In this document: positions 39,941 to 54,482 of the stretch, piece after piece
How positions within the stretch are numbered: position 1 is the first letter of the stretch
How the letters are laid out: each line of letters begins with the position of its first letter
Assembly: GCF_029023725.1 (NCBI RefSeq)
Contig: NZ_CP119075.1
Location: 2,723,501-2,787,500, forward strand
From: Synoicihabitans lomoniglobus
Lineage (GTDB): Bacteria; Verrucomicrobiota; Verrucomicrobiia; Opitutales; Opitutaceae
DNA: 64,000 nt
Direction: 5' to 3'
Translations under genes and position numbers: made by a program
The notes under the pieces: model-generated
Seen by the model: the letters and a program-made list of their open reading frames with translations, nothing else
The model's database searches: none
What the model was told of the DNA's origin: nothing

Positions 39941-40438
39941 ATGCTTCAAAACTCTAAATTATTATCTCTCGACAGCCTGATCACGAAACGTGAACGTTTG
40001 CGCCACATTCACAAAACGTGCGTCTTGACGAACGGTTGTTTCGATCTGCTGCACACAGGTCATCTGTTTTTCTTACAGGCCGCACGTAACTTGGGCGATT
40101 ACTTGATTGTAGCATTGAACAGCGATTCCAGCATTCGAGCGCTAAAGGGGACTGGTCGACCAGTGATCACGGAAACGGAGCGCGCTTATGCGTTAGCCGC
40201 CTTGGAGTGCGTCGATTGCGTATTGGTGTTCAAAACTCCGGATCTTGAGGAGGAGATTAAAGCAATCTGCCCCGACATTTATGCCAAGGCAGGCGATTAC
40301 TCTCTGACCCGATTGCACTCTGGCGAAAGAGCTGCGTTGGAGACTTGTGACGCTAAGATTGAGTTTCTGCCGTTCTTGGAAGGATTTAGCACCACCAATT
40401 TAATTCATAAAATCGCCCGAGCCGGAGAAATTACCTGA
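39941..40438 (+). CDS. rfaE2: Heptose 1-phosphate adenylyltransferase
   Basis: 165 residues. VLTNGCFDLLHTGHLFFLQ holds the HxGH nucleotide-binding motif of the cytidylyltransferase-like family, and ALNSDSSIRALKGTGRPV is the substrate loop of the HldE C-terminal domain. It makes ADP-D-glycero-beta-D-manno-heptose from heptose 1-phosphate and ATP. In enterobacteria this activity is fused to the kinase as HldE; here it is a free protein and the kinase is a separate gene at 42032. Confidence 0.93.
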   Translation: MLQNSKLLSLDSLITKRERLRHIHKTCVLTNGCFDLLHTGHLFFLQAARNLGDYLIVALNSDSSIRALKGTGRPVITETERAYALAALECVDCVLVFKTPDLEEEIKAICPDIYAKAGDYSLTRLHSGERAALETCDAKIEFLPFLEGFSTTNLIHKIARAGEIT

Positions 40439-40463
40439 ATCCGTTGCCTTTCCCGTCAATTTA

Positions 40464-41456
40464 ATGCCCTTAATCAATCCACGCATTGTCATTACTGGAG
40501 CAGCCGGCTTTATCGGTAGTCGGCTCCTGGCCCGCTTAAATGAAACCACATCCGCCGAAGATATCTTGGCGGTTGACCACCCCATCTCGCAAAGAAAGGT
40601 AACCAATCTGGCGGTGGCTCCCGACGTATCGTTTCTTACTCATACCGCATTTATCGAGGCGCTTGAATCAGGTTCGCTTTCACCGGAAGTGATCTTCCAC
40701 ATGGGAGCCTGTAGCTCTACCGTAGAAACCGATTGGAGATATCTAGCAGAAAACAACATTCGATACTCTCAGCGTATATGGGAGTGGAGCGCCGCCAACG
40801 GGCGACAATTTATCTACGCTTCGAGTGCAGCAACTTACGGCGATGGCACCCACGGATTTGATGACGAGTATGACATACAAAATTTGAGGCCACTCAACCT
40901 CTATGGCAAATCCAAGCACGATTTTGATCTTTGGGTCGAAGCACAAACGCAAAAGGATCGTGCTCGTCCGGCACAGTGCGTGGGTCTGAAGTTCTTTAAC
41001 GTCTATGGTCCGGGCGAGTCCCACAAAGGCCGCATGGCATCGATGGTTTTTCATGGATGGAACCAATTACGGGATACGGGGGCGGTCCGGCTATTCAAGT
41101 CACATCATTCCGATTACGCCGATGGCGGCCAACTCCGCGATTTCATCTATGTAGCTGATGTCGTCGACGTCATACTAACGTTAACTAAGCAACCCCAAGT
41201 GTCTGGGCTTTTCAATCTCGGCACAGGCCGCGCTCACTCCTTTCGGTCGCTAATCGAGGAACTATTCCGGGCAGTAGGTCAGCCCCCCAACATAGAATAC
41301 ATACCAATGCCGCGTGATTTGAGGTCAAAGTATCAATACTTCACCGAAGCCAAAATGCGAAAACTGACCGAAGCCGGAATCTCTTTTTCGCCTACGCCAC
41401 TCTCCGATGCGGTCGCCGACTATGCACAATGGCTTCGTGCCAACGCTCCCATTTGA
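40464..41456 (+). CDS. hldD: ADP-glyceromanno-heptose 6-epimerase
   Basis: 330 residues of the extended short-chain dehydrogenase family. NAD(P) motif: IVITGAAGFIGSRLLARLN. Substrate and catalytic features of HldD: IFHMGACSSTVETDWRYLAENN, the catalytic FIYASSAATYG and Tyr-x-x-x-Lys in LYGKSKHDFD, then GLKFFNVYGPGESHKGRMASM. These are highly specific for HldD, which converts ADP-D,D-heptose to ADP-L,D-heptose. Length matches the family. 25 bases after the adenylyltransferase gene. Confidence 0.96.
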   Translation: MPLINPRIVITGAAGFIGSRLLARLNETTSAEDILAVDHPISQRKVTNLAVAPDVSFLTHTAFIEALESGSLSPEVIFHMGACSSTVETDWRYLAENNIRYSQRIWEWSAANGRQFIYASSAATYGDGTHGFDDEYDIQNLRPLNLYGKSKHDFDLWVEAQTQKDRARPAQCVGLKFFNVYGPGESHKGRMASMVFHGWNQLRDTGAVRLFKSHHSDYADGGQLRDFIYVADVVDVILTLTKQPQVSGLFNLGTGRAHSFRSLIEELFRAVGQPPNIEYIPMPRDLRSKYQYFTEAKMRKLTEAGISFSPTPLSDAVADYAQWLRANAPI

Positions 41457-41471
41457 GCTCAAGATTAAGCT

Positions 41472-42035
41472 ATGATTTCCACCCTACTAGCAGAGCTGAT
41501 CGCCACGTTGGAGGAAAGTCGTCGACTCATTCCTGCTATTGAGGCAGCAGGACATGAAATCCGCACGGCCTTACGGGCAAAAAGAAGAATATATACCGCC
41601 GGTAACGGAGGCAGCGCAGCCGACGCCATGCACCTCGCGGAAGAACTAATTGGTCGATTTGACCGAGAGCGTCCATCACTTCCCGCAATTCCTCTTTGTT
41701 CCGACTCTGCCACACTAACATGTATCGCCAACGACTACGGTTTTGAAAAAATATTCTCCCGACAAATCGAAGGATTGGGTCAATCGGGTGATATTTTGGT
41801 GATTTTTTCAACGAGTGGTAAGTCGCTTAATATAATCACCGCTTTGCAGGTAGCCCGCGATCGCGGACTAAGAACCATCGCCGTGCTAGGTAAGGACGGG
41901 GGCCCTTCAAAATTGATTGCTGACCATGCTATCGTAGTGCCTAGCCAATCCACGGCCCGAATTCAGGAAGTCCACACTTTTATCCTTCACGCTTGGCTTT
42001 CGCTGATCGAGGGCGACCTCGAACTCGTCCAATGA
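41472..42035 (+). CDS. gmhA: Sedoheptulose 7-phosphate isomerase
   Basis: 187 residues, a single SIS domain. IYTAGNGGSAADAMHLAEELIGRF is the phosphate-binding signature of GmhA, followed by PLCSDSATLTCIANDYGFE, VIFSTSGKSLNI and QEVHTFILHAWLSLIE. It starts the pathway by turning sedoheptulose 7-phosphate into D-glycero-D-manno-heptose 7-phosphate. The DnaA-partner DiaA is a relative, but the setting among heptose genes decides the call. Overlaps the kinase gene by ATGA. Confidence 0.96.
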   Translation: MISTLLAELIATLEESRRLIPAIEAAGHEIRTALRAKRRIYTAGNGGSAADAMHLAEELIGRFDRERPSLPAIPLCSDSATLTCIANDYGFEKIFSRQIEGLGQSGDILVIFSTSGKSLNIITALQVARDRGLRTIAVLGKDGGPSKLIADHAIVVPSQSTARIQEVHTFILHAWLSLIEGDLELVQ

Positions 42036-43015
42036 CCCCGCTATCTCTCGATTTTCTCGATCGTATTTCCGTCTTAGTGGTCGGCGATGTGATGCTCGAC
42101 CGCTACATCTGGGGAGATATTCGACGTATTTCCCCTGAAGCTCCAGTGCCAGTAGTCGAGATCGATCGGGAAACTTGCACGGCAGGCGGTGCCGCCAACG
42201 TTGCTCTCAACCTTGCCGCACTTGGGGTGAGCTGCGAAATATTTGGGGCATTTGGTTGCGATGCGGCAGGTGAGGAACTCAGTTGCCTGTTGAAGAAACA
42301 CCACGTTGCATTCGAGCCTAGGTTAGCCCGCAATGGCACCGCCACTATCACTAAAACGCGCGTCCTTGCTCAAAACCAACAGGTTTGCCGCCTCGATCGG
42401 GAAGAGCGCCCGCCTCTATATACACTAGCTGTCGGCGGCTTAATGGATCTACTGGCCGAAAAATCAATGCAATACAGTGCAGTGATAATATCTGACTATG
42501 CAAAAGGAACAATCGACCAAGCAGTCATCGATCGCTTGCGTCAGGTATGCAAAGAAAAAAATGTCTTTCTCTCACTTGACCCGAAGCCCACTCGTTCACT
42601 GGAAATAAGTGGCTTCAATTTACTCACGCCGAACCGCCGCGAAGCCAACTTACTGGCAGGCCTTCCTGCGCATTGCAGCTTTGAACAATGCGCGGCTGAA
42701 GACGTGGCACAATTAGTTATCGATCGCCATCGACCTGAACATATGGTTATGACTCTGAGTGAAAATGGTATGCTTTTGAAATCTCGTGAGAGGTCCGCCC
42801 GCCATTTCCCCACGATAGCGCATCAGGTCGCCGACGTATCCGGTGCTGGTGATACCGTTGTTGCCACGCTTACTGCCGCCATGAGCGCCGGACTGAGTCC
42901 GGAGGATGCTGTGCACATTGCCAATACAGCAGCGGGTGTGGTAGTCAGCAAGTTGGGAACGGCCACCGTAACTCGCAGTGAGTTATCCAAGGCCTTGCAC
43001 CTTCCCTCGATCTGA
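42032..43015 (+). CDS. rfaE1: Heptose 7-phosphate kinase
   Basis: 327 residues from the ATG at 42032 (ATGA overlap). PfkB/ribokinase fold: VLVVGDVMLDRYIWGDIRRISPEAPVP is the HldE N-terminal signature (read in two parts), GGAANVALNLAALG is the substrate site, and VSGAGDTVVATL contains the catalytic Asp and anion hole. It phosphorylates heptose 7-phosphate at C1. With gmhA, gmhB, rfaE2 and hldD it completes the ADP-heptose pathway in one run of five genes. It ends the run; 221 bases without a clear gene follow. Confidence 0.95.
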   Translation: MTPLSLDFLDRISVLVVGDVMLDRYIWGDIRRISPEAPVPVVEIDRETCTAGGAANVALNLAALGVSCEIFGAFGCDAAGEELSCLLKKHHVAFEPRLARNGTATITKTRVLAQNQQVCRLDREERPPLYTLAVGGLMDLLAEKSMQYSAVIISDYAKGTIDQAVIDRLRQVCKEKNVFLSLDPKPTRSLEISGFNLLTPNRREANLLAGLPAHCSFEQCAAEDVAQLVIDRHRPEHMVMTLSENGMLLKSRERSARHFPTIAHQVADVSGAGDTVVATLTAAMSAGLSPEDAVHIANTAAGVVVSKLGTATVTRSELSKALHLPSI

Positions 43016-43183
43016 TCGCTCTGACTTCTTCAAATTTAAATGGCCGTGCCGTTTCGAATCGATTTCTTCCAACGGACTGAACCTTCTCAATTCGCTTTGT
43101 CAACTCTTAGGAAGGCTTCGCTCTACCGAATGGTAAAGTAGATCACAAGGTTCCCGTAAGGCAAATGCCCCTTTATCCGAAAT

Positions 43184-43212
43184 CCCCCCCCCCTCCCCCC
43201 CCACACACACAC
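43184..43212 (+). repeat. Poly-C and CA simple repeat before a membrane protein
   Basis: C10 (43184-43193), T, C8 (43195-43202) and (AC)5 (43203-43212), then more C-rich sequence to 43229. Between the in-frame ATG at 43165 and the ATG at 43237 the frame is open and would encode a Pro/His-rich stretch. Runs like these slip in replication, and they are also hard to sequence. Confidence 0.85.
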
Positions 43213-43236
43213 CCGCCCCCCGCGCCCCCGACAAAC

Positions 43237-45468
43237 ATGCCAACAATCAAAACCAAACGGCGTTACATAACTGGGGAGGCTACGCTCTATTTATCAGTTG
43301 TGCTCGCAGTGCTCACGATACTTTGGTGGGGATTTGACCTTCGTCGCTGGAATTTCGAAATACCTTTGAACATTGACGGGGACGCGCTGCACTATCTAGC
43401 GATAGCTAGATCAATGCTCGAAAGTGCCGAATGGTGGCGAATCGATCGGCTATCCGCACCTTTTGAGCTTAATATGCTGTTGTTTCCCTTCTGCGGCATG
43501 ACAGAAATTTTCCTGCTCAATCTTTGGTCGTTAGTTACCGATACCCCAGGATCAGTCGTATTCGGAGTTTTTTTGAGTTCGTTCGTTCTCGCAGCCGCTT
43601 CAGCCTGCTGGAGCCTGAGAACTTTGGGATACTCCCCCCTAATAGCAGCGACCGCCGGTATTTTGTTCGCGTTCATCCCATCGGTCTTTCTACGAAATAC
43701 GGCTCATTTAATGCTGCTACACTACATGGTTCCATTCCCCTGCGCTACCGCTGTGTTGATTGCTTCAGACACATTGAGAGACCTGAGTCGCACTCGAAGA
43801 TGGGTTACCGTAGGATTCACCTGTGTGGTTGGTTTAAGTTATATTTACACTGCCTTCTTTGGCTGCTTCCTTTTATGCGTTGCAGCTCTGATCGCGTGGG
43901 CGAGGCGCGGTTCGATTCGCGCAACAATCTGGCCGGGCGCAATCATTGCGGTTATCGCTGTGCTGGCATTTTTTTCACTTTTGCCAAGTATCCTGGCTTG
44001 GAAAAACGATCTAATCGCAAGTGATGCTTTAATCGGTTCCAAGAGCATGGCCGACTCCGACACCTACGGACTTAAACTTCGCCATCTCATCACTCCGCGA
44101 CAGGATCATCCACTTTCGCTTTTCCGAGATTTCACTAATGAAACAGTGGGACACTTTCCCCTAGATAACGAAAACACGACGTCAAAAATCGGCGGGCTTC
44201 CCTCCTTGGGATTATTGACCTTACTGTTCATTGCAGTATCCGGTTATTTTTCTAGAACTTGGCTCCCATTAAAGTCGCCGCTCATAGCTTCATCCTCGTT
44301 GGCTATAAGTTCTTTTTTGCTGGCGACCATCGGCGGATTGGGCAGCCTTTTCAATCTTTGGATCAGTTCTGAAATACGGTGCTATAATCGTATAAGCGTA
44401 TTTATCGCGTTTCTCGCTATTGTTCCGGTCGCCTACGCATTACAGAACATTAGCCACCGAATACCTAAACTCGGGAGTTATGCAGTATGCACTCTAGTCG
44501 TTATAATTGGTGTCCTCGATCAAGCCTCGTTCGGCTACGTAGCATCATTACACCACAACGGGGAAGCTCGTTATCTCGAAACCAAAGAATTTATTACTAA
44601 ATTGGAGAATGAGCTACCGGAGGAAGCTTTAATTTACCAGCTTCCCCATATGCCGTATCCACATACTCCGCCAATGTTGCGTTTCGGCGCCCATTCCCAT
44701 CTTCTGGCCTACGTAACATCAACCTCGCTAAATTGGAGCTGGCCCGCCCTCACGGGCGAGGCGCTAACGTTTAACTCGGAACTAACCCAAGTTTCATTGA
44801 TCGATTTCGTAACCAAACTCTCCGAATCGAATTTCTCCGGAATTTTAGTTAACACGACAGCTTATGAGGATAAAGGCGCGGCGATAGTAGAAAATTTAGA
44901 GCATTTACTAACCCAAAAGGCGTTGCTATCTACCCAAGGAGAATATGCTTTTGTCGCAATTCCGGCAACCGGAAAAAAGCAAATCAACCCGAACATCGAA
45001 GTTTACTTGGCGGCGAAAGAGGTGCCGATCCTGATACCTCTAAATCACATGGTGGATTTTTCTGAATTCGGCGACAGCGAGCGACATTTAAATGGAGGTT
45101 GGTCGCATCAAGAAACCGATTTTCGTTGGACAGTGGGGCCAGAATCCGGTCTCCAGTTTTTTTTCAAGGAAATGCCTGAAACAGCCCTGCATCTCTCTTT
45201 TTCCACGTTTACTCTCCTCGCCCCTTCTCAGACCAAAAAAACAGCTGAAATCTTCGCGAACGATCGATTGGTGGGATCTTGGGTTTTCGACACCACGGAT
45301 AACGACAGTATCCGTATCGTTGAAATTCCACCTGAAGCAATTTCTCCAAACCGTCTGCTTGACCTAAGGCTCATCATCGACCCACCTTCCTCGCCCCTCT
45401 CACTTGGAGTGAATGCTGACTCGCGGCCTCTGGGCATTGCGATTCGATCGATAACCATCTCCAATTAA
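43237..45468 (+). CDS. GT-C-like membrane protein with C-terminal module
   Basis: 743 residues from the ATG at 43237. An upstream in-frame ATG at 43165 would add a Pro-rich 24-residue tract from the C-repeat, which does not look like protein, so I prefer 43237. About eleven membrane segments occupy residues 20-440. The first periplasmic loop carries NIDGDALHYLAIARSM, with acidic residues like those of GT-C lipid-linked sugar transferases. A soluble part follows, and the last 125 residues are the recurrent module: HLNGGWSHQETDFRWTVGPE (Gly621-Trp622) to ADSRPLGIAIRSITI. Related architectures are the sugar-translocase-like proteins of O-antigen loci. Role as a periplasmic glycosyltransferase is inferred. 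Confidence 0.7.
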   Translation: MPTIKTKRRYITGEATLYLSVVLAVLTILWWGFDLRRWNFEIPLNIDGDALHYLAIARSMLESAEWWRIDRLSAPFELNMLLFPFCGMTEIFLLNLWSLVTDTPGSVVFGVFLSSFVLAAASACWSLRTLGYSPLIAATAGILFAFIPSVFLRNTAHLMLLHYMVPFPCATAVLIASDTLRDLSRTRRWVTVGFTCVVGLSYIYTAFFGCFLLCVAALIAWARRGSIRATIWPGAIIAVIAVLAFFSLLPSILAWKNDLIASDALIGSKSMADSDTYGLKLRHLITPRQDHPLSLFRDFTNETVGHFPLDNENTTSKIGGLPSLGLLTLLFIAVSGYFSRTWLPLKSPLIASSSLAISSFLLATIGGLGSLFNLWISSEIRCYNRISVFIAFLAIVPVAYALQNISHRIPKLGSYAVCTLVVIIGVLDQASFGYVASLHHNGEARYLETKEFITKLENELPEEALIYQLPHMPYPHTPPMLRFGAHSHLLAYVTSTSLNWSWPALTGEALTFNSELTQVSLIDFVTKLSESNFSGILVNTTAYEDKGAAIVENLEHLLTQKALLSTQGEYAFVAIPATGKKQINPNIEVYLAAKEVPILIPLNHMVDFSEFGDSERHLNGGWSHQETDFRWTVGPESGLQFFFKEMPETALHLSFSTFTLLAPSQTKKTAEIFANDRLVGSWVFDTTDNDSIRIVEIPPEAISPNRLLDLRLIIDPPSSPLSLGVNADSRPLGIAIRSITISN

Positions 45469-45604: not shown

Positions 45605-47119
45605 ATGAAAGTCTGTCTAATTAACCCACCTCTGATTTCGCAAAAAGATGATCCCCACACTGGAATCATCTTTATGCCATTCATGTTGGCTTATCTTTCC
45701 GCCTTTTTAAAGCAACAAGGTCACCAAGTGCATGTGACCGATGCACTTGGTGAGGCTCCCGCCAAATACCTACCATTTGAGGATCGCTACATTCAAGGCC
45801 TAAGCATACAGGAAACCGTCAACAAGATTCCCGTCGACACCGAAGTTGTGATCATTTATTTCATCGGCGTCGCAGCTCACAGGGCCATATCCGATATCGC
45901 AATCGAGATTCGAAAAAGACACCCGAACACTCGATTGGTTCTTATGGAAAACTCTCAGGCGGTTACCGCAATTTCTCTTCGCCACGATGCTGAAGCTTTT
46001 TTGAATTTGGGCTACGAGGTGCTGTTAACCGGCGACCCCGAACGTCCGGCAGCAGAAATGTTGAAAGCTTGGTCTAATGAGAACGATACCCCAGAATCAG
46101 CCGGACTGATTTTTCGCAAGATTGACGGAAACCTTTCCATGATGGTGAAAATCCAACCTGATCGAGACTTGGACAACCTTCCTTTTCCCGACTGGAAATC
46201 TTTTCCGCTGAAAAATTATTGGACTATCGGTTACGCGCACGGACCGCAGGAATCGAAATACCTGCCATTACTAACATCTCGCGGCTGTCCCGTCCCATGC
46301 CGTTTTTGTGTGATACCCGCTACGAATCAACGCAAATGGCGGCCTCGATCAGCCGAGAATGTGGTCGATGAAATGGCTCATTGGCAAATTACTTTAGGCG
46401 TTTCCGAATTCCACATTGAAGACGTCAATCCGACTGTGCGAAATCAACGAATGGTTGACATTTCAAATGAAATCACTCGGAGAAAATTGAAGGTTAAGTG
46501 GAAATTCGCATCCGGCACCAAGATTGAAACAATGGAACTAGATACCATCCCAATATTGGCTGCCGCAGGTTGCAATTATATTTCTTTCTCACCTGAAACC
46601 GGTTCACCCGAACTTCTGAAGAAAATCAATAAACCATTCAAGCACGATCTCGCCTTTGAAATGGTTAAATTAATGCACAAGCATGGGATTCGCTCACAAG
46701 CATGTTTTGTACTCGGATTCCCGGGCGAAACGAAAGAAGATGTCAGGCTAACCAAAAACTATATTAAAAAATTAACCAAAGCGGGGTTAGACGAAATTGC
46801 TCAATTCATTATCACCCCCATCCCTGGCTCCGCCATATTTGATCAATACAGTGGTTATGATAATTATTCGCAACTTACTTTTTCGCCAAAATGGCGTAAA
46901 GATTTTGCCAAATTAAGCCAACGACGCTTACTACATTACGTATCTTTCGCTGTATGGAAATGCTGGTATCACCCACTCAAAGTTTGTGGAAACGTGAAAG
47001 GTATTTTGGCAGGTCGGTTCAAGACCAAACTTGAACAGGCACTATATCGAGTATCAATTTGGCGTATTCGTAGACTTTTCGGCTCCTTTCCGCGTTCTCT
47101 ATATGGCTCAACTGAATAA
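45605..47119 (+). CDS. B12-binding domain radical SAM protein
   Basis: 504 residues. The N-terminal 150 residues form a Rossmann-like cobalamin-binding domain (KVCLINPPLISQKDD; MLAYLSAFLKQQGHQVHVTDA). The DxHxxG His loop is absent, as is usual in class B enzymes. The radical SAM core has the 4Fe-4S motif TSRGCPVPCRFCVIP with Cys228, Cys232 and Cys235, then EFHIEDVNPTV and ISFSPETGSPELLKKINKP. Such enzymes methylate unreactive carbon or phosphorus, or do other radical chemistry. In a polysaccharide locus it may make a C-methyl or other unusual sugar or acid. Iron-sulphur and B12 dependence is known for the family; the substrate is unknown. Start of the AT-rich segment. Confidence 0.88.
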   Translation: MKVCLINPPLISQKDDPHTGIIFMPFMLAYLSAFLKQQGHQVHVTDALGEAPAKYLPFEDRYIQGLSIQETVNKIPVDTEVVIIYFIGVAAHRAISDIAIEIRKRHPNTRLVLMENSQAVTAISLRHDAEAFLNLGYEVLLTGDPERPAAEMLKAWSNENDTPESAGLIFRKIDGNLSMMVKIQPDRDLDNLPFPDWKSFPLKNYWTIGYAHGPQESKYLPLLTSRGCPVPCRFCVIPATNQRKWRPRSAENVVDEMAHWQITLGVSEFHIEDVNPTVRNQRMVDISNEITRRKLKVKWKFASGTKIETMELDTIPILAAAGCNYISFSPETGSPELLKKINKPFKHDLAFEMVKLMHKHGIRSQACFVLGFPGETKEDVRLTKNYIKKLTKAGLDEIAQFIITPIPGSAIFDQYSGYDNYSQLTFSPKWRKDFAKLSQRRLLHYVSFAVWKCWYHPLKVCGNVKGILAGRFKTKLEQALYRVSIWRIRRLFGSFPRSLYGSTE

Positions 47120-48062
47120 ATCTCCCTCCATCAACAATCCTGACTTGTTCGATGACACCCAATGCCCTGTTTGTAATGGGTTGAAATTTACAGTTCTCAA
47201 AGAGGCTACTTATACCTCTGGGATTAATGAAGATAATCTACTCAAGCTCTACAGTGCATCGAGCCACTCCGGACTTCTAGACCAAGTCGTGAAATGCAAG
47301 AGCTGCGATAGCGTTTATCTCAATCCGAGGCCAAAACAGGATATCATTATCAAATCCTATCAAGATGCGATTGACCCGGTCTTCGTAGAACAAAACGACG
47401 CAAGAATCGCGACGTTTCGAAGATCGCTGGAAAATTTAGAACGGCGTCATGGATTCTCAGCCTCTTCGCATCCTAAAATTTTGGATGTGGGTTGTGCGGG
47501 CGGTGCATTCTTACGAGCAGCATCCGACCGCGGTTATGAAGCCATAGGGATCGAACCTAGTCGATGGATGGTGGACCATGCTCGAAATAAACTTGGAGTG
47601 GACGCACGTCAGGGAATATTGACTGCTAATTCTTTTCAAAATAATTCATTCGACATTGTATCGCTCTGGGACGTTTTAGAGCACTTACCAGAACCGTCCA
47701 TGACATTGGACGACATAGCTCAAATGCTAAAACCAGGTGGATTTCTCATCGTGAATTACCCGGATATTGGGAGTCTAGCGGCGCGAGTTCTCGGGGGGCG
47801 TTGGCCTTTCTGGCTCAGCGTCCATCTAACCTACTACACTCGCCAGACAATACGAAAGCAATTAAATCAGTGCGGCTTCGATGTGGTTAGCATTAAGCCA
47901 TACTTTCAAAGTTTAAAATTAGGATACGCCTTGGAACGCGCCAGCGTAATATTTAAACCATTTTCAATTCTTGGAAGCCTGGTAAACCTTTGCCGATTCC
48001 AATCGGTGCCAATACGCTACAACATGGGTCAAACACTCGTTTTGGCGCGAAAACGGGCATGA
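47103..48062 (+). CDS. SAM methyltransferase with zinc ribbon
   Basis: 319 residues from the ATG at 47103, overlapping the radical SAM gene by 17 bases. The N-terminal 70 residues carry two Cys pairs, QCPVCNGLKF and VKCKSCDSVYL, a likely structural zinc ribbon seen in many glycan-locus methyltransferases. Motif I is KILDVGCAGGAFLRAA near residue 140, and LWDVLEHLPEPSM and LKPGGFLIVNYPDIGS complete the class I core. The C-terminal segment (residues 220-319) is typical of the group. It probably methylates a nucleotide sugar or sugar product made by the neighbours. Confidence 0.88.
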   Translation: MAQLNKSPSINNPDLFDDTQCPVCNGLKFTVLKEATYTSGINEDNLLKLYSASSHSGLLDQVVKCKSCDSVYLNPRPKQDIIIKSYQDAIDPVFVEQNDARIATFRRSLENLERRHGFSASSHPKILDVGCAGGAFLRAASDRGYEAIGIEPSRWMVDHARNKLGVDARQGILTANSFQNNSFDIVSLWDVLEHLPEPSMTLDDIAQMLKPGGFLIVNYPDIGSLAARVLGGRWPFWLSVHLTYYTRQTIRKQLNQCGFDVVSIKPYFQSLKLGYALERASVIFKPFSILGSLVNLCRFQSVPIRYNMGQTLVLARKRA

Positions 48063-48703
48063 CCATACCAAATAGGTTCAAGGCTATTATTTTCGATATG
48101 GACGGCGTGCTTATAAATTCAAGTGATTGCCATGCCAACGCTTTTCGACAAGTTTTTAATTCTATTGGTATAAAGAATTTTCACTACCCTGACTACGCCG
48201 GAAGGCGGACCACAGAAGTCATTACATCGGTTTTCATACATCACGGACTAAAACCAGACGTCAATTTAATTAAACACCTCGCGAAACAGAAAACTGCGCT
48301 GGCATTATCTTTTATCAGAAATAAACAACCAATATTCGATGGCACTACTGAGATGCTCAAACGATTGTTTCCTAAATTTCAACTTGCTTTAGCGAGTTCT
48401 GCATCCCGCCAATCGGTAGACCTTTTCCTAGAACTATCAACGTCTAAAAGTCTCTTTAAAACAACGCTGTGTGGTGACGACGTGGCCGAAGCCAAACCTT
48501 CTCCGGAAATTTATATAACAACTTCGAACCGCTTGTCAATTGAACCATCTCAATGCCTTGTCGTTGAAGATGCCATCTCTGGGATCGATGCGGCTTTGAA
48601 TGCTGGCATGACTGTATGGTCCGTTACTACTACTCACACTAGAAATGAACTTATTACAGCCGGCGCACACGTTGTTTTAAAAAATGCGGCTTCTTTACAC
48701 TAA
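48059..48703 (+). CDS. HAD-family phosphatase / phosphomutase
   Basis: 214 residues from the ATG at 48059 (ATGA overlap). AIIFDMDGVLINSSDCHANAF holds the nucleophile and acid Asp, LALASSASRQSV is motif II, AKPSPEIY contains the Lys of motif III, and VVEDAISGIDAALNAGM is motif IV. The helical cap after motif I is of C1 type, as in beta-phosphoglucomutase and phosphoglycolate phosphatase. It could be a phosphatase or mutase for a small phosphorylated precursor used by the nucleotidyltransferase that follows. Eight bases separate the two genes. Confidence 0.88.
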   Translation: MTIPNRFKAIIFDMDGVLINSSDCHANAFRQVFNSIGIKNFHYPDYAGRRTTEVITSVFIHHGLKPDVNLIKHLAKQKTALALSFIRNKQPIFDGTTEMLKRLFPKFQLALASSASRQSVDLFLELSTSKSLFKTTLCGDDVAEAKPSPEIYITTSNRLSIEPSQCLVVEDAISGIDAALNAGMTVWSVTTTHTRNELITAGAHVVLKNAASLH

Positions 48704-48711
48704 TTAACGCA

Positions 48712-49527
48712 TTGAAAACTAAAGTATCAATTATTTCAAACATTGACGACTTACCTGCGGAACTTGTTGCAGGCGATCCCTCGAAGAGCAAGAATTGGTC
48801 GGTAGTTGTTGCAGCAGCCGGCAAGGGCTCCAGACTTAACTGGCATCTGCCGAAGATCCTCTTCCCAATTGACGGCCAGTCAATACTCGAACGTTTGGTT
48901 AAAGTATTTAAACCACATGCCCAACATTTTGTATTCGTGTTATCGCCTACCGGAGCACCACTGGTAAAGGTTGAAACCGAAAAGCTTCTCCCTGATCGAC
49001 ACTCGATCGCTATACAATGTACACCAAATGGAATGGCAGATGCCGTACTTACCGGATTGGGAAAAGTCAAAACTCCGAATGTCATTGTAGTTTGGGGAGA
49101 CCAAGCAGCATTGCGTCATCGCACAATTGCCGCCGGTGTTTATAAATTGGAAACCGGCAATTTCGATGCGGTAATTCCTACGGTCATAAGATCTAATCCA
49201 TACATCCATTTTGAGCGTGATTCTAACCACTCAATCAAATATGTGCGACAAGCACGGGAAGGAGATATTATGCCTAAGGTTGGAGAGAGCGACGCTGGAG
49301 TATTTTTCTTTAAAACACAGATGTTAAAATCTGCGATTCTCGCACCCGCACACCAATCAGACATGCGCGGCGCAAGAACCAACGAAATTAATTTGTTACC
49401 TTTAATTCCATTGCTTGCTCGCAATTATAAAATAGCATCACTTAACGGTGTCACCGAAACCGAGTCTCTCGGTATCAACTCTCTCGCTGACGCAGAACGA
49501 ATGGAACAAATGCTTCGGGTGAATTGA
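48712..49527 (+). CDS. Nucleotidyltransferase, NTP_transferase type
   Basis: 271 residues, starting at a TTG since no ATG or GTG precedes the conserved part. After about 35 residues without a known motif, WSVVVAAAGKGSRLNWHLPKILFPI is the nucleotide-binding loop (GxGxR then PK) of GlmU/RmlA/CofC-like enzymes, and VVWGDQAALRH holds the metal-binding Asp. The segment ESDAGVFFFK and the NEINLLPLIPLLA near the end fit a sugar nucleotidylyltransferase. No C-terminal acetyltransferase repeat is present. Its stop overlaps the CofD-like::GT2 gene (TTGA), so the two are probably co-translated. The activated compound may be a sugar phosphate or, by analogy with CofC, a phospho-acid. Confidence 0.82.
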   Translation: MKTKVSIISNIDDLPAELVAGDPSKSKNWSVVVAAAGKGSRLNWHLPKILFPIDGQSILERLVKVFKPHAQHFVFVLSPTGAPLVKVETEKLLPDRHSIAIQCTPNGMADAVLTGLGKVKTPNVIVVWGDQAALRHRTIAAGVYKLETGNFDAVIPTVIRSNPYIHFERDSNHSIKYVRQAREGDIMPKVGESDAGVFFFKTQMLKSAILAPAHQSDMRGARTNEINLLPLIPLLARNYKIASLNGVTETESLGINSLADAERMEQMLRVN

Positions 49528-51530
49528 ATCAGATGCAGGCATCCAATAAAATAAACATTGTTCTCTTCTCCGGCGGAAGTGGAACAAAAAGCATCACGGA
49601 GGCGTTTCTCAAACATCCGCAGATCAATCTTTCCATTTTACTCAACGCTTATGACGACGGGCACTCCACCGGTCGTCTGCGTAAATTTATTCCAGGAATG
49701 CTCGGTCCCTCCGACGTCCGTAAGAACATCAGCCGTCTCATGCCTCTAAATGAACGCTGTTTCAAAGCCTTGGCAGAACTATCCGATTTACGACTGCCTA
49801 AAAAGATTCGATATGATGACGCAGTCACAATTATTAGAGGGTTATCCTCTCGATCCAGTGAGAACCTTCCTAAGGATATAACTTCTCTTTTTGTTTCTTT
49901 AACTTTGAAACAAATTGATACGCTTTCAATCTGGTGTAATGAATTCCTTAACTACGCAAGCAAGCGCGCCGAAGAAGGATCCCCGTTCGACTACAACGAT
50001 TGCGCGTTAGGAAATATTTTGTTCGCTGGTTGTTATTTAACCTCAAAACAGAACTTCAATACAGCGATTAAGTCATTCTCAGCTTTCTATGAGATAAAAT
50101 CGCACCTACTGAATGTGACGGATGGAGAAAACTTATTTTTGGTCGCTACTACGGAAGAAGGAACCGTACTGCGAAATGAAGCCGATATCGTTTCAGAACA
50201 TTCCGGCTCCAAAATATCTGGCATATATTTGCTTCAAGAATCTGCTTTTCGTGAGAGTATTCAAAGCAACTTACTTGACGACGCAGAAGCATCGGAATTC
50301 ATTCGCCGAAATCATGTCTTTCCGAAACTTAACGAAGAACTACCAGATGTTTTCGAAAATGCGGATGTCATCATTTACGGTCCGGGAACCCAGCATTCTT
50401 CTCTTTTCCCTTCCTATCTAACTGAAGGAATAGCCGAGCTAGTCGCCGCGAATAAACAGGCGGACAAGGTGTTTATTTGCAACACGAGAAAAGACCATGA
50501 TATTGTCGCCGAAGACGCAGGAAGCATCGCACGACGTTTCCTTCATTGCATGAGGCGATATGATAAAGTCGATCTCAATGAAGAAAATTTCGTAACTCAC
50601 TTCTTTATTCAAAAGTCTCCAGAATCAAATTCAACTGATAGCACGCTTGTACCGTTCAATTTGGAGTCCTTTCCGTTTGCTTCGAGAAAACTAGTCCTAC
50701 TCGACTGGGAAACCCCTGAAGGCCACCACATCGGAGGCCGAGTGCTTGAAGAGCTCCAAGTTATCGTGCAGCCTCGATTGGAAGTGGTGCTAAAATCCAT
50801 ACATCATTTAGTAACGATTGTAGTTCCGGCTTTAAACGAAGAGGAAACAATAGAGAAATCATTAAAGCAGCTTTTAGCACTCGATTTCTCCGAACTCAAT
50901 CTGGCTAAAGAAATATTGTTCGTCGATGGGGGCTCCACCGACCGAACTAATGAGATTGTATCCACACTCTCGGGCGTGCGAAAAATACAAGTAAGAAATT
51001 CGCACGGAAGAGGAGATGCGCTTCGCGCAGGTATCGATAATTCTAAAGGCAACATCGTAGTATTCTTTCCTGCGGATGCGGAGTATTCAGCGAAAGATCT
51101 TCATCCCATTGTCACCGCGTTCATTCAGGGCAATTTTGAAGTCGTATTCGGAAGTCGCGCCATCAAATGCGTCAATTTGAACCGTCGCATTAACGAAATT
51201 TACGGTAACGCTTGGATGAGTTATTTCATGAGTAAATACGGCGGTATCTTACTCAGCATGACTGCATTACTCCTATACAATCGCTATGTCGCAGATCCTC
51301 TCACCAGTATAAAAGCATTCGACGGTCGCATTCTTCGAAGCCTGAAATTAAAATCTTCCGGGGTCGACCTTGATATGGAACTGATTGCGAAAGTCAGTCG
51401 CTTGGAAAAATTCATTTTAGAGATTCCGGTCGAATATCTACCTCGTGCAAAATCGGAAGGCAAGAAGACGACCCCATGGCAGGGGTTACGAGCGCTTTGG
51501 GCCTTCTTCAGATACAGATTCGACAATTAA
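49524..51530 (+). CDS. CofD/YvcK-like domain fused to GT2 glycosyltransferase
   Basis: 668 residues. Residues 10-400 match the CofD/YvcK superfamily: VLFSGGSGTKSITEAFLK (glycine loop at 17-20), LNAYDDGHSTGRLRKFI (Asp44, Asp45, Arg51, Arg53), GPSDVRKNISRL (62-72), and YGPGTQHSSLFPSYLTEGIA near 286. Residues 430-668 are a complete GT2 domain of the dolichol-phosphate-mannose synthase type: VTIVVPALNEEETIEKS, LFVDGGSTDRTNE, FFPADAEYSAKDL and, late, VEYLPRAKSEGKKTTPW. CofD transfers a phospho-acid from a GDP-activated donor to form a phosphodiester; YvcK-type proteins bind UDP-sugars and have a regulatory role. I know of no characterised protein with this fusion. A TTG at 49524 overlaps the previous stop; ATG at 49533 is an alternative start. 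Confidence 0.85.
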   Translation: MNQMQASNKINIVLFSGGSGTKSITEAFLKHPQINLSILLNAYDDGHSTGRLRKFIPGMLGPSDVRKNISRLMPLNERCFKALAELSDLRLPKKIRYDDAVTIIRGLSSRSSENLPKDITSLFVSLTLKQIDTLSIWCNEFLNYASKRAEEGSPFDYNDCALGNILFAGCYLTSKQNFNTAIKSFSAFYEIKSHLLNVTDGENLFLVATTEEGTVLRNEADIVSEHSGSKISGIYLLQESAFRESIQSNLLDDAEASEFIRRNHVFPKLNEELPDVFENADVIIYGPGTQHSSLFPSYLTEGIAELVAANKQADKVFICNTRKDHDIVAEDAGSIARRFLHCMRRYDKVDLNEENFVTHFFIQKSPESNSTDSTLVPFNLESFPFASRKLVLLDWETPEGHHIGGRVLEELQVIVQPRLEVVLKSIHHLVTIVVPALNEEETIEKSLKQLLALDFSELNLAKEILFVDGGSTDRTNEIVSTLSGVRKIQVRNSHGRGDALRAGIDNSKGNIVVFFPADAEYSAKDLHPIVTAFIQGNFEVVFGSRAIKCVNLNRRINEIYGNAWMSYFMSKYGGILLSMTALLLYNRYVADPLTSIKAFDGRILRSLKLKSSGVDLDMELIAKVSRLEKFILEIPVEYLPRAKSEGKKTTPWQGLRALWAFFRYRFDN

Positions 51531-51535
51531 AGAAA

Positions 51536-52270
51536 ATGAAAACTCTATCTATTATTATTCCAGCCTACAACGAGTCCGCTACCATTGGCGATTTGTTGGT
51601 TAAAATTAATTCAGTAGATTTAACCCCACTCGGTTTCTCAAAGGAAGTCTTAGTAGTAGACGATGGATCGAATGACAATACAGCTGCCATTGCGTCATCA
51701 CATTCTAATATCATTTGCTTCACACAAGTGCCTAACCAAGGGAAAGGCAAGGCCGTTCGTCGAGGCATTATAGAGTGTAGCGGCGACTTTATACTTATTC
51801 AGGATGCAGACTTGGAATACAATCCAAACAATTATTTTGAACTTGTCGCTGCGCTATCTTCACAAAACAACACAGCTGTCTACGGGAGTCGCATACTTGG
51901 CCAAAAACGTTTGCCTAATGCATCACGCCTTTTTCCTGGAAAGCACCCGAATCAAGACATCGGTCCTTGGTTCGCCGGAATCGTGTTGTCAATCTGGACT
52001 GCACTACTATACAGAAAGTGGATCACAGACACGCTCACAGCTTATAAACTTTATCCTGCGAAATATCTTAAATCCCTAAAACTAGAAACTTCCGGATTTG
52101 AAACCGATCATGAAATCACAGCTAAACTTATAAATGGGGGGGTAAATATTATTGAAATCCCAGTCGATTACCGTCCGCGATCAGTCAATGAAGGGAAAAA
52201 AATTAAACCTCGAGACGGACTGATTGCACTTCGCACGTTGTGGCGATATCGTAATTTCTCTCGACGCTAG
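51536..52270 (+). CDS. GT2 glycosyltransferase, DPM1/DpgS-like
   Basis: 244 residues from the ATG at 51536, five bases after the previous stop. LSIIIPAYNESATIGDLL, VVDDGSNDNT, and QDADLEYNPNNYFEL give the donor and metal sites; the absence of C-terminal membrane helices fits polyprenyl-phosphate-sugar synthases of the DPM1 type. The end (VDYRPRSVNEGKKIKPRDG) mirrors that of the GT2 half of the preceding protein (VEYLPRAKSEGKKTTPWQG), so the two may be paralogues. It probably forms a polyprenyl-phosphate sugar used by periplasmic GT-C enzymes such as the next gene. Confidence 0.87.
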   Translation: MKTLSIIIPAYNESATIGDLLVKINSVDLTPLGFSKEVLVVDDGSNDNTAAIASSHSNIICFTQVPNQGKGKAVRRGIIECSGDFILIQDADLEYNPNNYFELVAALSSQNNTAVYGSRILGQKRLPNASRLFPGKHPNQDIGPWFAGIVLSIWTALLYRKWITDTLTAYKLYPAKYLKSLKLETSGFETDHEITAKLINGGVNIIEIPVDYRPRSVNEGKKIKPRDGLIALRTLWRYRNFSRR

Positions 52271-52412: not shown

Positions 52413-54482
52413 ATGAATATTAAGGTTCGAGCGCTTTTCCTTCCTTCAACGAAAGAGAAAACGGGATTTTTGACCACCCGCTGCATCATTACGGTGATAG
52501 CCTGCATTGCAATTACAACTCTTTACATAAACGATGTTTCACGCCCCGATTTTAGTAATGATGGTTTTCTCGGCTGGGTCGGCTGGTATGACCAAGGGGA
52601 GTACTACAAATCCGCCAATGCTTTAGCTTCCGGTAATCTAGCCCCGAGTGAACATACCTACCCCCCCGGATACCCTATTCTAGCTGCGCCTTTCATCCGA
52701 TTATCGCCTCAACATGCATTTCTACCGGTCATTTTAGTTTCCTCTTTTCTAGTATTTTTCATCTTTCTTTCCGTGGCTACTCGCGCACTTGGTTTAGCGC
52801 CGGCGACCCTTTCATTGATACTAGGAGCGTTCGCCCTACCTGATGTAACAAGAGCATATGTGATACCATGGACCAACACATTCTCAGCTGCCCTATTAGG
52901 TTTGCTTTACTTCTTAATCGACCGAGTCAGTCGAAAAGTGAGATACCCAACTGGTAGAGGCTCCCTCCTACACACTTTGGCAATAGCATTTGTCGCAGGC
53001 TACATATTCACCGTCCGTCCTGTAGACATACTATTAACAATCCCCGCGGCTATTGCTCTGCTTGCTATTTGGTATAGATCGTGGAGCATTTCGACGTGTC
53101 GAGCAACCAGACCCTATATAATAATGTTGGCCCTCGGTTTACCAACTGCGGCTCTTGCACCATCATTAATGCTTCTTTTCAATCAAGTTGTATATGCTGA
53201 TGCTTTCGGAGGGTATCTCAAAATTGCGACGCCTGAAGGAGGAGGCGGCGGGTTTGACTTCGCAATTGTACTGCAGAAAATGATATCTCTCCTGATCGAC
53301 GGCAGAGAAATGTATCTCACCGACCGATTAGGCTTATTTTCGCTTCTTCCGTGGACGTTGATGGGTATTTGTGCGTTACCTTGTCTTTTTTTCCGCCTGC
53401 CAATTGCGTTAAAGGCTCTCAGTATTGCTTGCTTAATGCAGTTATTTGTTTACTCTGGATTCGGAGATCTAACCGGACATAATTTATACAAATACCTTAA
53501 CGTTCGTTGCTTCATTTGGCCGACGCTATGGCTCAGCTTTTTTGCAACTTGGGGCATCCTCCTAATAATAAAACAATCGGGTCGCCACAGAGTCGCCACC
53601 TCATTGATTATCATTTCGGGAAGCATAATTTTACTTTGCTTACGTGTGAACGCGACACGTTGGCCCGCCCCGGATTTTGAAATCGGTCCTGACAATCGTG
53701 CGCAAACATTTCGCGTAACCCACAACAAGGAACAACCAATCAGCTTTATTGATTTACTAGAAAGCACCGCTATGCGTTTCCATCCGGATTCACGCCAAAC
53801 GAAAGTTTGGGTGGATGGAGTCCCGTTGTTATCTGAGGCGGATTATAAAGTATGTGGCGGGACAGCACTGCCGTTCTTTCGTATTTTGTTCACCCGACCC
53901 ATTAGCGGTGAAGTAATAGACGTGAACCTAACCCCTACCTCACCGACTCACAATATTTCCGGGGCCTCACGTATTTACTTGGGAACACTGTCATCCGAAA
54001 TCAGTAATCCGGTATATAAACGAGGCGGAAGCGAGTTAAGCAAATATATACTTCTGACGGCCCATTCAACGGAACAGTTTGAGTTTGGACACGACCGAAT
54101 AGGCAATTACTTATTGAGAGAAGGTTGGAGCTCTCCCGAACAGTCGCACGCATGGAGCAACATGGCTCACAGCGTAATTGAATTTGGCGTTATCAAAGAT
54201 AACCACACTCATGAATTGACTCTAACAGGCAATACTTTCGGCAAACAAAACACAGATATCATTATAAACGGGACAAAAGTCGGATCAATCACAGGTGTTC
54301 ATGATCAACAAATTTTTAAGATAAACATTAATGTGCCACCTGACAGAGTGACCAATAATGGTAAAATTCGTCTAGAACTCCGTCACCATAATGCTGTATC
54401 GCCATTTGACTTAGGAATGAACGGAGATAAACGACAATTGGCGATCGCTCTAAAGGGGTTGAAGGTATCAGTAGTAAGGTAG
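52413..54482 (+). CDS. GT-C-like membrane protein with C-terminal module
   Basis: 689 residues. About eleven membrane segments fall between residues 25 and 410. The first periplasmic loop contains WVGWYDQGEYYKSANALASG with adjacent acidic residues, and YPPGYPILAAPFIRL follows, a layout of GT39/GT83-type GT-C enzymes that use polyprenyl-phosphate sugars. A soluble stretch of about 150 residues and a final module of about 120 residues (REGWSSPEQSHAWS at Gly571-Trp572, ending MNGDKRQLAIALKGLKV) complete it. The final module is the same type as in 32901, 43237 and 54527, with the most diverged last strand (RQLAIA in place of RPLGLA). Domain order parallels 43237, although the membrane parts differ clearly. 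Confidence 0.7.
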   Translation: MNIKVRALFLPSTKEKTGFLTTRCIITVIACIAITTLYINDVSRPDFSNDGFLGWVGWYDQGEYYKSANALASGNLAPSEHTYPPGYPILAAPFIRLSPQHAFLPVILVSSFLVFFIFLSVATRALGLAPATLSLILGAFALPDVTRAYVIPWTNTFSAALLGLLYFLIDRVSRKVRYPTGRGSLLHTLAIAFVAGYIFTVRPVDILLTIPAAIALLAIWYRSWSISTCRATRPYIIMLALGLPTAALAPSLMLLFNQVVYADAFGGYLKIATPEGGGGGFDFAIVLQKMISLLIDGREMYLTDRLGLFSLLPWTLMGICALPCLFFRLPIALKALSIACLMQLFVYSGFGDLTGHNLYKYLNVRCFIWPTLWLSFFATWGILLIIKQSGRHRVATSLIIISGSIILLCLRVNATRWPAPDFEIGPDNRAQTFRVTHNKEQPISFIDLLESTAMRFHPDSRQTKVWVDGVPLLSEADYKVCGGTALPFFRILFTRPISGEVIDVNLTPTSPTHNISGASRIYLGTLSSEISNPVYKRGGSELSKYILLTAHSTEQFEFGHDRIGNYLLREGWSSPEQSHAWSNMAHSVIEFGVIKDNHTHELTLTGNTFGKQNTDIIINGTKVGSITGVHDQQIFKININVPPDRVTNNGKIRLELRHHNAVSPFDLGMNGDKRQLAIALKGLKVSVVR

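Follow-up and report, generated by a model that had tools for sequence, protein, structure and literature searches.

A CofD-like glycosyltransferase fusion of Synoicihabitans lomoniglobus belongs to an uncharacterised enzyme family that may make sugar-phosphate decorations on lipids, glycans or viral DNA

Introduction

The closest described relatives of the element studied here share the CofD superfamily fold. In FbiA, a protein of the CofD type, two aspartates hold a metal that contacts the beta-phosphate of GDP, with the acceptor hydroxyl nearby (described in passages of PMC7253369), and CofD/FbiA has a nucleotidyltransferase partner, CofC/FbiD. YvcK/GlmR (UPF0052, TIGR01826), a biochemically unsettled domain, stands with GlmM and GlmU on a route to UDP-N-acetylglucosamine (UDP-GlcNAc), and a third CofD-like protein (TIGR04357) is found in GAK loci. 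Here, we analysed a 64,000-nucleotide stretch of the Synoicihabitans lomoniglobus genome (RefSeq assembly GCF_029023725.1, contig NZ_CP119075.1, positions 2,723,501 to 2,787,500 of the forward strand; hereafter the window), which encodes a protein joining a CofD-like domain to a family 2 glycosyltransferase (GT2), next to genes for a nucleotidyltransferase (NTP) and a HAD enzyme. An earlier note, made from the sequence alone, had likened the NTP and the fusion protein to a CofC/CofD pair. Gene neighbourhoods and fusions in other genomes show that a predicted HAD enzyme, a GlmU-like NTP and a YvcK/CofD-fold protein recur as a set, joined in varying orders by gene fusion and lying beside unrelated glycosyltransferases. 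The fusion protein is one member of an uncharacterised enzyme family, here called the GPSDxRK family.

Each described system resembles this module in part. The family has the fold of YvcK/GlmR and agrees with it at many conserved positions, among them the Asp pair, one Asn, one Arg and a C-terminal His, but carries LGPSDxRKN and GTQxSSLxP where YvcK has PPGDxRN and GSxYTSxLP; its members are also longer, fused to or in operons with HAD, NTP and glycosyltransferase genes, and lie on their own side of a branch with a Shimodaira-Hasegawa-like approximate likelihood ratio test (SH-aLRT) value of 99 in a quick tree. With CofD/FbiA and CofC/FbiD it has in common the superfamily fold, an aligned metal-binding Asp pair and a nucleotidyltransferase partner, whereas this partner is GlmU-like and a HAD enzyme is added as a third. 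The GAK CofD-like protein is the best NCBIfam match of the fusion protein by bits, yet the one GAK locus examined has an ATP-grasp enzyme, an HprK-related kinase and phosphatases as neighbours rather than an NTP, a HAD enzyme and a glycosyltransferase, and no ATP-grasp or HprK-type match was found among ten window proteins scanned. The GlmM-GlmU-GlmR route likewise combines a sugar-phosphate enzyme, a GlmU-like uridylyltransferase domain and a GlmR-like protein, but in the module HAD-type enzymes replace GlmM, the window NTP comes without the acetyltransferase half and a glycosyltransferase is linked. No earlier description of the family, the triad or its viral setting was found in the open-access literature searched.

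Results

Family and fold of the CofD-like domain

Both open reading frames (ORFs) described in the earlier note are present (Table 1), the motifs that it quoted (GGSGTKS, DDGHSTGRLR, GPSDVRK and GPGTQHSS) all occur in the fusion protein, and its division into a CofD/YvcK domain and a C-terminal GT2 agrees with Pfam. The profile search, which by the terms of the note could have refuted its reading, assigned the N-terminal part to the CofD superfamily rather than to an unrelated family, at 84.7 bits against the PF01933 cut-off of 30. An AlphaFold2 model of the fusion (48-sequence alignment; mean predicted local distance difference test score, pLDDT, 91.7; predicted template modelling score, pTM, 0.89) contains two domains, residues ~6-422 and 426-668, that align to known folds. 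By VIA-align of this model, the N-terminal domain aligned to YvcK (2o2z) with a Z score of 34.0 and a root-mean-square deviation (rmsd) of 2.5 over 300 residues and to FbiA (6uvx) with Z 20.5 and rmsd 3.7 over 277 residues, and the C-terminal domain to a dolichyl-phosphate-mannose synthase (DPMS, 5mlz) with Z 24.1 and rmsd 2.5 over 222 residues; FbiA chains, present in the VIA list, were not among the 50 Foldseek rows listed. With a profile of 52 homologues, E values were 2.3e-38 to 3.4e-28 for five PDB sequences of the UPF0052/YvcK type and 2.5e-4, a weak match, for CofD (3c3d). By sequence profile and predicted structure, the CofD-like domain is nearer YvcK/GlmR than CofD.

The fusion protein met no curated NCBIfam cut-off, scoring 86.8 bits against 340 for the GAK family and 72.6 against 196 for YvcK, and the CofD equivalog (TIGR01819) was absent from its matches at E <= 0.01. 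Of seven related proteins scanned against NCBIfam, one had no match at 1e-10 and the other six had matches that all stayed below the cut-offs. In a quick IQ-TREE tree of 106 rows, made without bootstraps, the branch with SH-aLRT 99 split 101 rows from five YvcK/GAK rows, and the window protein clustered with seven Acidobacteriota proteins (support 100). Within its own phylum, the family was detected at 1e-15 in one of 288 genomes searched, that of the window protein itself, which points to horizontal acquisition of the family by the window organism. In a 95-genome search with the full fusion protein, the matches listed, self aside, fell in the GT2 part.

The module across genomes

Loci were gathered with a pair of short peptide patterns, LGPSD[LV]RK being one, which gave 30 viral loci and 97 genome loci, of which the best 80 were kept. 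Adding the window and loci from plasmid and phage records brought the total to 117, or 105 once copies of >=90% identity are dropped, including four outgroup loci without the signature (L014, L016, L018 and L019). Partners were counted with domain-limited profiles on all ORFs, "near" meaning fused or <=2.5 kb away on the same strand; these counts replace those of an early NTP profile, discarded because it recruited CofD and GT2 proteins through fusions.

The co-occurrence with a nucleotidyltransferase gene on which the earlier note had relied proved widespread: an NTP was fused or near in 89 of the 105 loci (24/25 viral, 65/80 other), a HAD enzyme in 74 and both in 71, or 89, 74 and 71 of 101 without the outgroup loci. 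As an internal control, five NTP matches were fused, 85 near on the same strand, two near on the opposite strand and five farther off. The NTP, not the GT2, is the most constant partner of the CofD-like domain; a GT2 was fused in 47/105 loci, and a HAD domain took its place in 43/105, one of them with an extra GT2. The main ORF was CofD::HAD in 42 loci, CofD::GT2 in 42, CofD alone in 14 and NTP::CofD::GT2 in three, with rarer CofD::NTP (2), GT2::CofD::HAD (1) and GT2::CofD (1) forms. No HAD enzyme was near in 20 of the 42 CofD::GT2 loci, including several from Alphaproteobacteria and Legionellaceae, and in some loci, such as three from Magnetococcales, the HAD and NTP genes lay 4.6-5.3 kb away.

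The module thus extends beyond the pair seen in the earlier note, with a HAD gene directly upstream, triple fusions and viral loci. Pfam confirmed NTP::CofD::GT2 in two of its three loci (Patescibacteria and Bacteriovorax proteins), CofD::NTP in WOR-1 and a HAD::NTP fusion in two Acidobacteria (L116 and L120). A 2905-residue Omnitrophota protein (L111:1819-10536) combines CofD, NTP and HAD in this order (Pfam CofD, NTP_transf_3 and Hydrolase_3); its ~750 N-terminal and >1100 C-terminal residues had no Pfam match at 1e-3. For proteins of the L070/L085 type, the C-terminal domain is assigned to GT2 by iterated profile only, Pfam showing none in both.

Partner enzymes

By its profile the NTP is GlmU-like, not CofC, and here the earlier note's comparison failed. 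The profile of 52 members (of 53 NTPs) matches GlmU over its full length at 3e-28, and a Pfam scan of the window ORF at E <= 0.01 gave no CofC match. The PK-motif Lys and the GD-motif Asp are invariant in 52/52 members and are taken to correspond to GlmU K25 and D105; GlmU Q76, judged by eye, is apparently not conserved in the family profile. The window NTP, only 271 residues long and lacking the acetyltransferase half, falls below the GlmU equivalog cut-off (57.1 bits against 366.85). The NTP profile also matches CTP:inositol-1-phosphate cytidylyltransferase, at 1.9e-13.

Two distinct HAD classes occupy the third place, a window type (HADw; 25 of 34 aligned) and a phage/Firmicutes type (HADp; 25 of 38 aligned, 30 in alignment A10). 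The HADw profile lies nearest to the TM1254 sugar phosphatase (2.9e-38), CbbY (3.7e-36) and beta-phosphoglucomutase 4g9b (5.5e-36), and its D12, D14, K145 and D170 (alignment numbering) are invariant in 25/25. For HADp, PDB matches at E <= 1e-3 comprise 18 distinct sequences, 15 of them alpha-phosphoglucomutases (alpha-PGM) or phosphomannomutases; the catalytic pair D9/D11 is invariant in both alignments (25/25 and 30/30), and the top row for its model is alpha-PGM 4bnd (Z 18.0, rmsd 3.8, 213 residues aligned), non-mutase HAD proteins reaching 16.6. All three parts of the module therefore speak for a nucleotide sugar and sugar phosphates rather than for a phospho-acid.

Conserved residues of the CofD-like domain

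The alignment of the domain holds 52 of the 56 members listed (L016, L018, L072 and L098 were excluded). Twenty positions are invariant in these diverse members, several of them polar and catalytic-looking. The key aspartates whose loss the earlier note would have counted against it are retained: D44 and D64 are invariant in 52/52 and fall, by hhalign (probability 93), on D45 and D57 of three CofD/FbiA-type proteins from module-bearing genomes, a numbering consistent with the spacing of M. smegmatis FbiA. The family signature reads NAYDxGxSTG..R / LGPSDxRKN / GTQxSSLxP, and G[PV]SDx[RA]K is present in 100/105 loci; because loci were gathered with short peptide patterns, the conservation of LGPSDxRK and N[CA]YD[ND]G is partly built in. 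GlmR Arg301 or Asn198 as a criterion for sensor versus enzyme was dropped, since E. faecalis YvcK and E. coli YbhK seem, by eye, variable there.

Viral loci and DNA glycosyltransferases

The partner glycosyltransferase differs by setting, being a DPMS-like GT2 in the window and a DNA glycosyltransferase in viral contigs. A gene resembling the T4 DNA beta-glucosyltransferase (T4-BGT) or a TET-associated glycosyltransferase (TAGT) lies in the fetched stretch of 23 of the 25 nonredundant viral loci, <=3 kb away on the same strand in 22; neither type was found in the fetched stretches of L026 and L049. By profile, the T4 type occurs in L017, L021-L025, L027-L042 and L045-L048 (PF09198 at 3.3e-15 and 3.5e-17; PHROG 7922 at 3.5e-42 to 1.4e-51) and TAGT in L043 and L044 (PF20691, 2.8e-24 to 9.1e-35). 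Direct Pfam or PHROGs checks covered three proteins of each type, and the remaining viral assignments come from our own clusters and profiles. In L022, neither the CofD::HAD protein nor the NTP matched a PHROG at 1e-4. Genes resembling those for thymidylate synthase, guanylate kinase and thymidylate kinase lie nearby in several of the T4-type loci.

A chemical likeness is offered by phage SP-15: according to passages of PMC5977210, its DNA has a modified base that bears glucose as well as a glucuronate-1-phosphate diester, a diester of a sugar-1-phosphate. SP-15 is not among the organisms counted for matches to the window protein.

Known roles considered and rejected

F420 biosynthesis was rejected because the S. 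lomoniglobus genome (98.85% complete) has no match to CofC (PF01983) or F420 ligase (PF01996), 0 each, and no other PF01933 protein. Of 15 module-bearing genomes tested, five encode, in addition, a true CofD/FbiA that scores above the cut-off of TIGR01819; the new protein is thus not just the CofD of these genomes. A GAK system and anti-phage defence were likewise set aside, as the TIGR04357 cut-off was unmet and the four proteins scanned had no PADLOC matches.

Discussion

Our leading reading, tentative and held at somewhat under even confidence, is that the window contains one form of a mobile module for sugar activation and transfer, in which the CofD-like enzyme transfers a sugar-1-phosphate to an acceptor. 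The HAD enzyme would supply the sugar-1-phosphate from a sugar-6-phosphate, as a phosphohexomutase or a phosphatase, and the NTP would convert it to a nucleoside diphosphate (NDP) sugar; both steps are proposed because of the family resemblance of the two enzymes. In the least certain step, the CofD-fold enzyme would bind the NDP-sugar through a metal held by D44 and D64, an acceptor hydroxyl would attack the beta-phosphate, as in FbiA/CofD with its own substrate, and a nucleoside monophosphate (NMP) would leave, so that the sugar-1-phosphate is joined by a phosphodiester. This step is suggested by the CofD mechanism and by the presence of the CofD-like part alongside glycosyltransferases of very different kinds. 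The acceptor, which in the window would be a lipid-linked or growing glycan, would be built or carried by the partner glycosyltransferase, a GT2 in the window and an enzyme of T4-BGT or TAGT type in viral contigs. It is possible, if more doubtful, that the GPSDxRK proteins as a whole are a new sugar-1-phosphate transferase family with a YvcK/CofD fold, forming together with a HAD mutase and a GlmU-like enzyme a portable phosphosugar-diester module that acts on lipid-linked glycans, perhaps a polyketide-type product, and the glycosylated DNA bases of huge phages. Such transferases would be unlike stealth and membrane phosphoglycosyl transferases.

Several observations weigh against sugar-1-phosphate transfer. 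The CofD-like domain is nearer YvcK/GlmR than CofD, and passages of PMC10128056 report GlmR as a UDP-sugar binder and uridyltransferase, not as phosphodiester-forming. The same two aspartates are retained in YvcK and E. coli YbhK, so that the pair marks a retained site and cannot tell CofD from GlmR chemistry. Partners are also missing in places: no HAD enzyme was found by profile near 31/105 loci (L111 has one by Pfam) and no NTP near 16/105, although four loci in each of these sets are outgroup loci without the signature. For the HADp model, other HAD phosphatases score within ~2 Z of alpha-PGM. SP-15, present in the phage collection, had no match to the phage CofD domain at 1e-5; its sugar-phosphate is therefore not explained by the GPSDxRK family and serves as a chemical precedent only.

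A YvcK/GlmR-like role in regulation or supply is a close rival, and we regard it as possible, with about the same reserve as the family-wide proposal above. Here, the HAD enzyme and the NTP would make an NDP-sugar for direct use by the partner glycosyltransferase, and the CofD-like domain would bind that NDP-sugar and regulate or channel it, or act as a second, GlmR-like nucleotidyltransferase. Sequence and fold are nearest YvcK/GlmR, the module set mirrors the GlmM, GlmU and GlmR pathway, and the partner glycosyltransferases would need a donor. Published passages add that Listeria GlmR made UDP-GlcNAc from UTP and GlcNAc-1-phosphate and that a D40A/D41A/N198A mutant was ~100-fold less active (PMC10128056), that in B. 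subtilis uridyltransferase activity is needed for function (PMC13046274) and that YvcK binds UDP-sugars (PMC5482804). Set against this, HAD, NTP and GT2 each occur fused to the CofD-like part, and a second uridyltransferase would be redundant beside a GlmU-like enzyme. The part is also kept in viral contigs, where a pure regulator would presumably be costly, although the loci were collected by this very part. The family's GPSDxRK and GTQxSS differ from the PGDxRN and GSxYTS of YvcK, and B. subtilis GlmR Arg301 has no evident conserved counterpart, which, by eye, seems likewise true of E. faecalis YvcK. The earlier note had included a narrower form of this idea, a YvcK-type UDP-sugar sensor controlling the fused GT2; YvcK is indeed the nearest family, but the GT2 is not a constant partner, 43/105 loci carrying a HAD domain instead. 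Sugar-1-phosphate transfer and the GlmR-like role differ in whether NMP and a phosphodiester appear.

Three further explanations are given less weight. A scheme patterned on the di-myo-inositol phosphate (DIP) pathway, in which the NTP activates an alcohol phosphate, the CofD-like enzyme couples the NDP-alcohol to a sugar phosphate and cleavage of the terminal phosphate by the HAD enzyme leaves a phosphodiester building block, is unlikely: the inositol-1-phosphate cytidylyltransferase match and the closeness of HADw to phosphatases fit it, but the GlmU match is far stronger and HADp is nearest mutases. We consider it less likely still that a CofC/CofD pair attaches a phospho-acid, for example phosphoglycerate, to a glycan after activating it, the other proposal of the earlier note. 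Although the superfamily fold with its metal Asp residues and the presence of a nucleotidyltransferase partner would suit that chemistry, the NTP is not CofC, the HAD partner indicates sugar phosphates, the CofD profile match is weak and neither CofC nor F420 ligase was found in the genome. That the CofD-like domain is a scaffold without chemistry, gathering sugar enzymes, seems the least probable of all; its fusion to each of HAD, NTP and GT2 would be expected of a scaffold, but the twenty invariant positions and the HAD::NTP fusions beside a separate CofD::GT2 would not.

Across many bacterial phyla, and in large viral contigs too, the module ties the unsettled YvcK/GlmR domain directly to sugar-activating enzymes through gene fusion, and so offers a concrete route to asking what YvcK-fold proteins catalyse. 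Its constituent domains are known, and there is a real chance that the central enzyme is of a new type. If the viral version modifies DNA, sugar-phosphate hypermodification would be encoded by an identifiable gene set, and carriers could be predicted among uncultured phages. For the window organism, the module names a sugar branch of the surface glycan.

Other genes of the window and other settings

The features of the locus are listed in Table 1. The TTGA overlap between the NTP and fusion genes, described in the earlier note, holds if translation starts at TTG 49524 and is lost if it starts at the alternative ATG 49533 (residue 4), 5 nt past the upstream stop; it is therefore possible, not certain.

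Table 1. Positions of the module and neighbouring genes in the window
Feature	Position	Strand	Remarks
Radical SAM protein, wider set in some genomes	45605..47119	+	PF04055 7.9e-21
SAM methyltransferase, wider set in some genomes	47031..48062	+	PF13489 2.7e-29
HAD enzyme, beta-phosphoglucomutase/sugar-phosphatase type	48059..48703	+	ORF open from 47990, probable ATG 48059; HAD_2 PF13419 4.8e-29
GlmU-like sugar-1-phosphate nucleotidyltransferase (NTP), 271 aa	48712..49527	+	NTP_transf_3 PF12804 5.7e-13; IspD 3e-8
CofD-like::GT2 fusion protein, 668 aa	49524..51530	+	PF01933 residues 12-325; PF00535 residues 431-555
YvcK/CofD-type domain of fusion (residues 7-417)	49542..50774	+	PF01933 8.5e-24
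Codon of Asp44 of fusion	49653..49655	+	aligned with FbiA metal ligand Asp45
Codon of Asp64 (GPSD) of fusion	49713..49715	+	aligned with FbiA metal ligand Asp57
GT2 domain of fusion, dolichyl-phosphate-mannose-synthase-like	50790..51530	+	PF00535 3.2e-23; model residues 427-668
Second GT2 gene, wider-set partner	51536..52270	+	PF00535 2.4e-25

The wider set recurs with the module in one Pseudomonadales, several Bdellovibrionota, one Synergistaceae and several Magnetococcales loci. Homologues occur in 18 other loci for the second GT2 (separate ORFs, 51-66% identity), in 13 for the methyltransferase (42-51%, plus two matches at 22-28%) and in 10 for the radical SAM protein (40-47%, with three on the opposite strand, plus two matches at 29%). 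By NCBIfam the radical SAM protein comes closest to a P-methyltransferase family (7e-38), scoring 130.5 bits where the cut-off is 575.

Outside the window, CofD and HAD genes are carried by L090 (Anaerocolumna) and L092 (Clostridium KNHs205); in L090 they lie between a large ORF that by eye resembles a polyketide synthase and an EryCIII-like glycosyltransferase, a setting that suggests use in a natural product, and a profile search of this locus found no NTP near them. In the outgroup locus L019, from a plasmid of Agrobacterium rubi, a stand-alone YvcK-like gene has a ROK-family gene as its neighbour and genes for aldolase and sugar transport close by, which again hints at sugar-related roles of the YvcK fold.

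Two large, apparently hydrophobic window proteins (43165-45468 and 52413-54482), without Pfam or NCBIfam matches at 0.01, are possibly glycosyltransferases of the GT-C type; in the Magnetococcales locus L123, a 720-residue protein without a Pfam match follows CofD::GT2. Before the locus, at 39941-43015, we recognised by eye a set of genes resembling a heptose pathway (an HldE-like nucleotidyltransferase half, an epimerase, GmhA and a kinase), so that the cluster may make a heptose-containing glycan.

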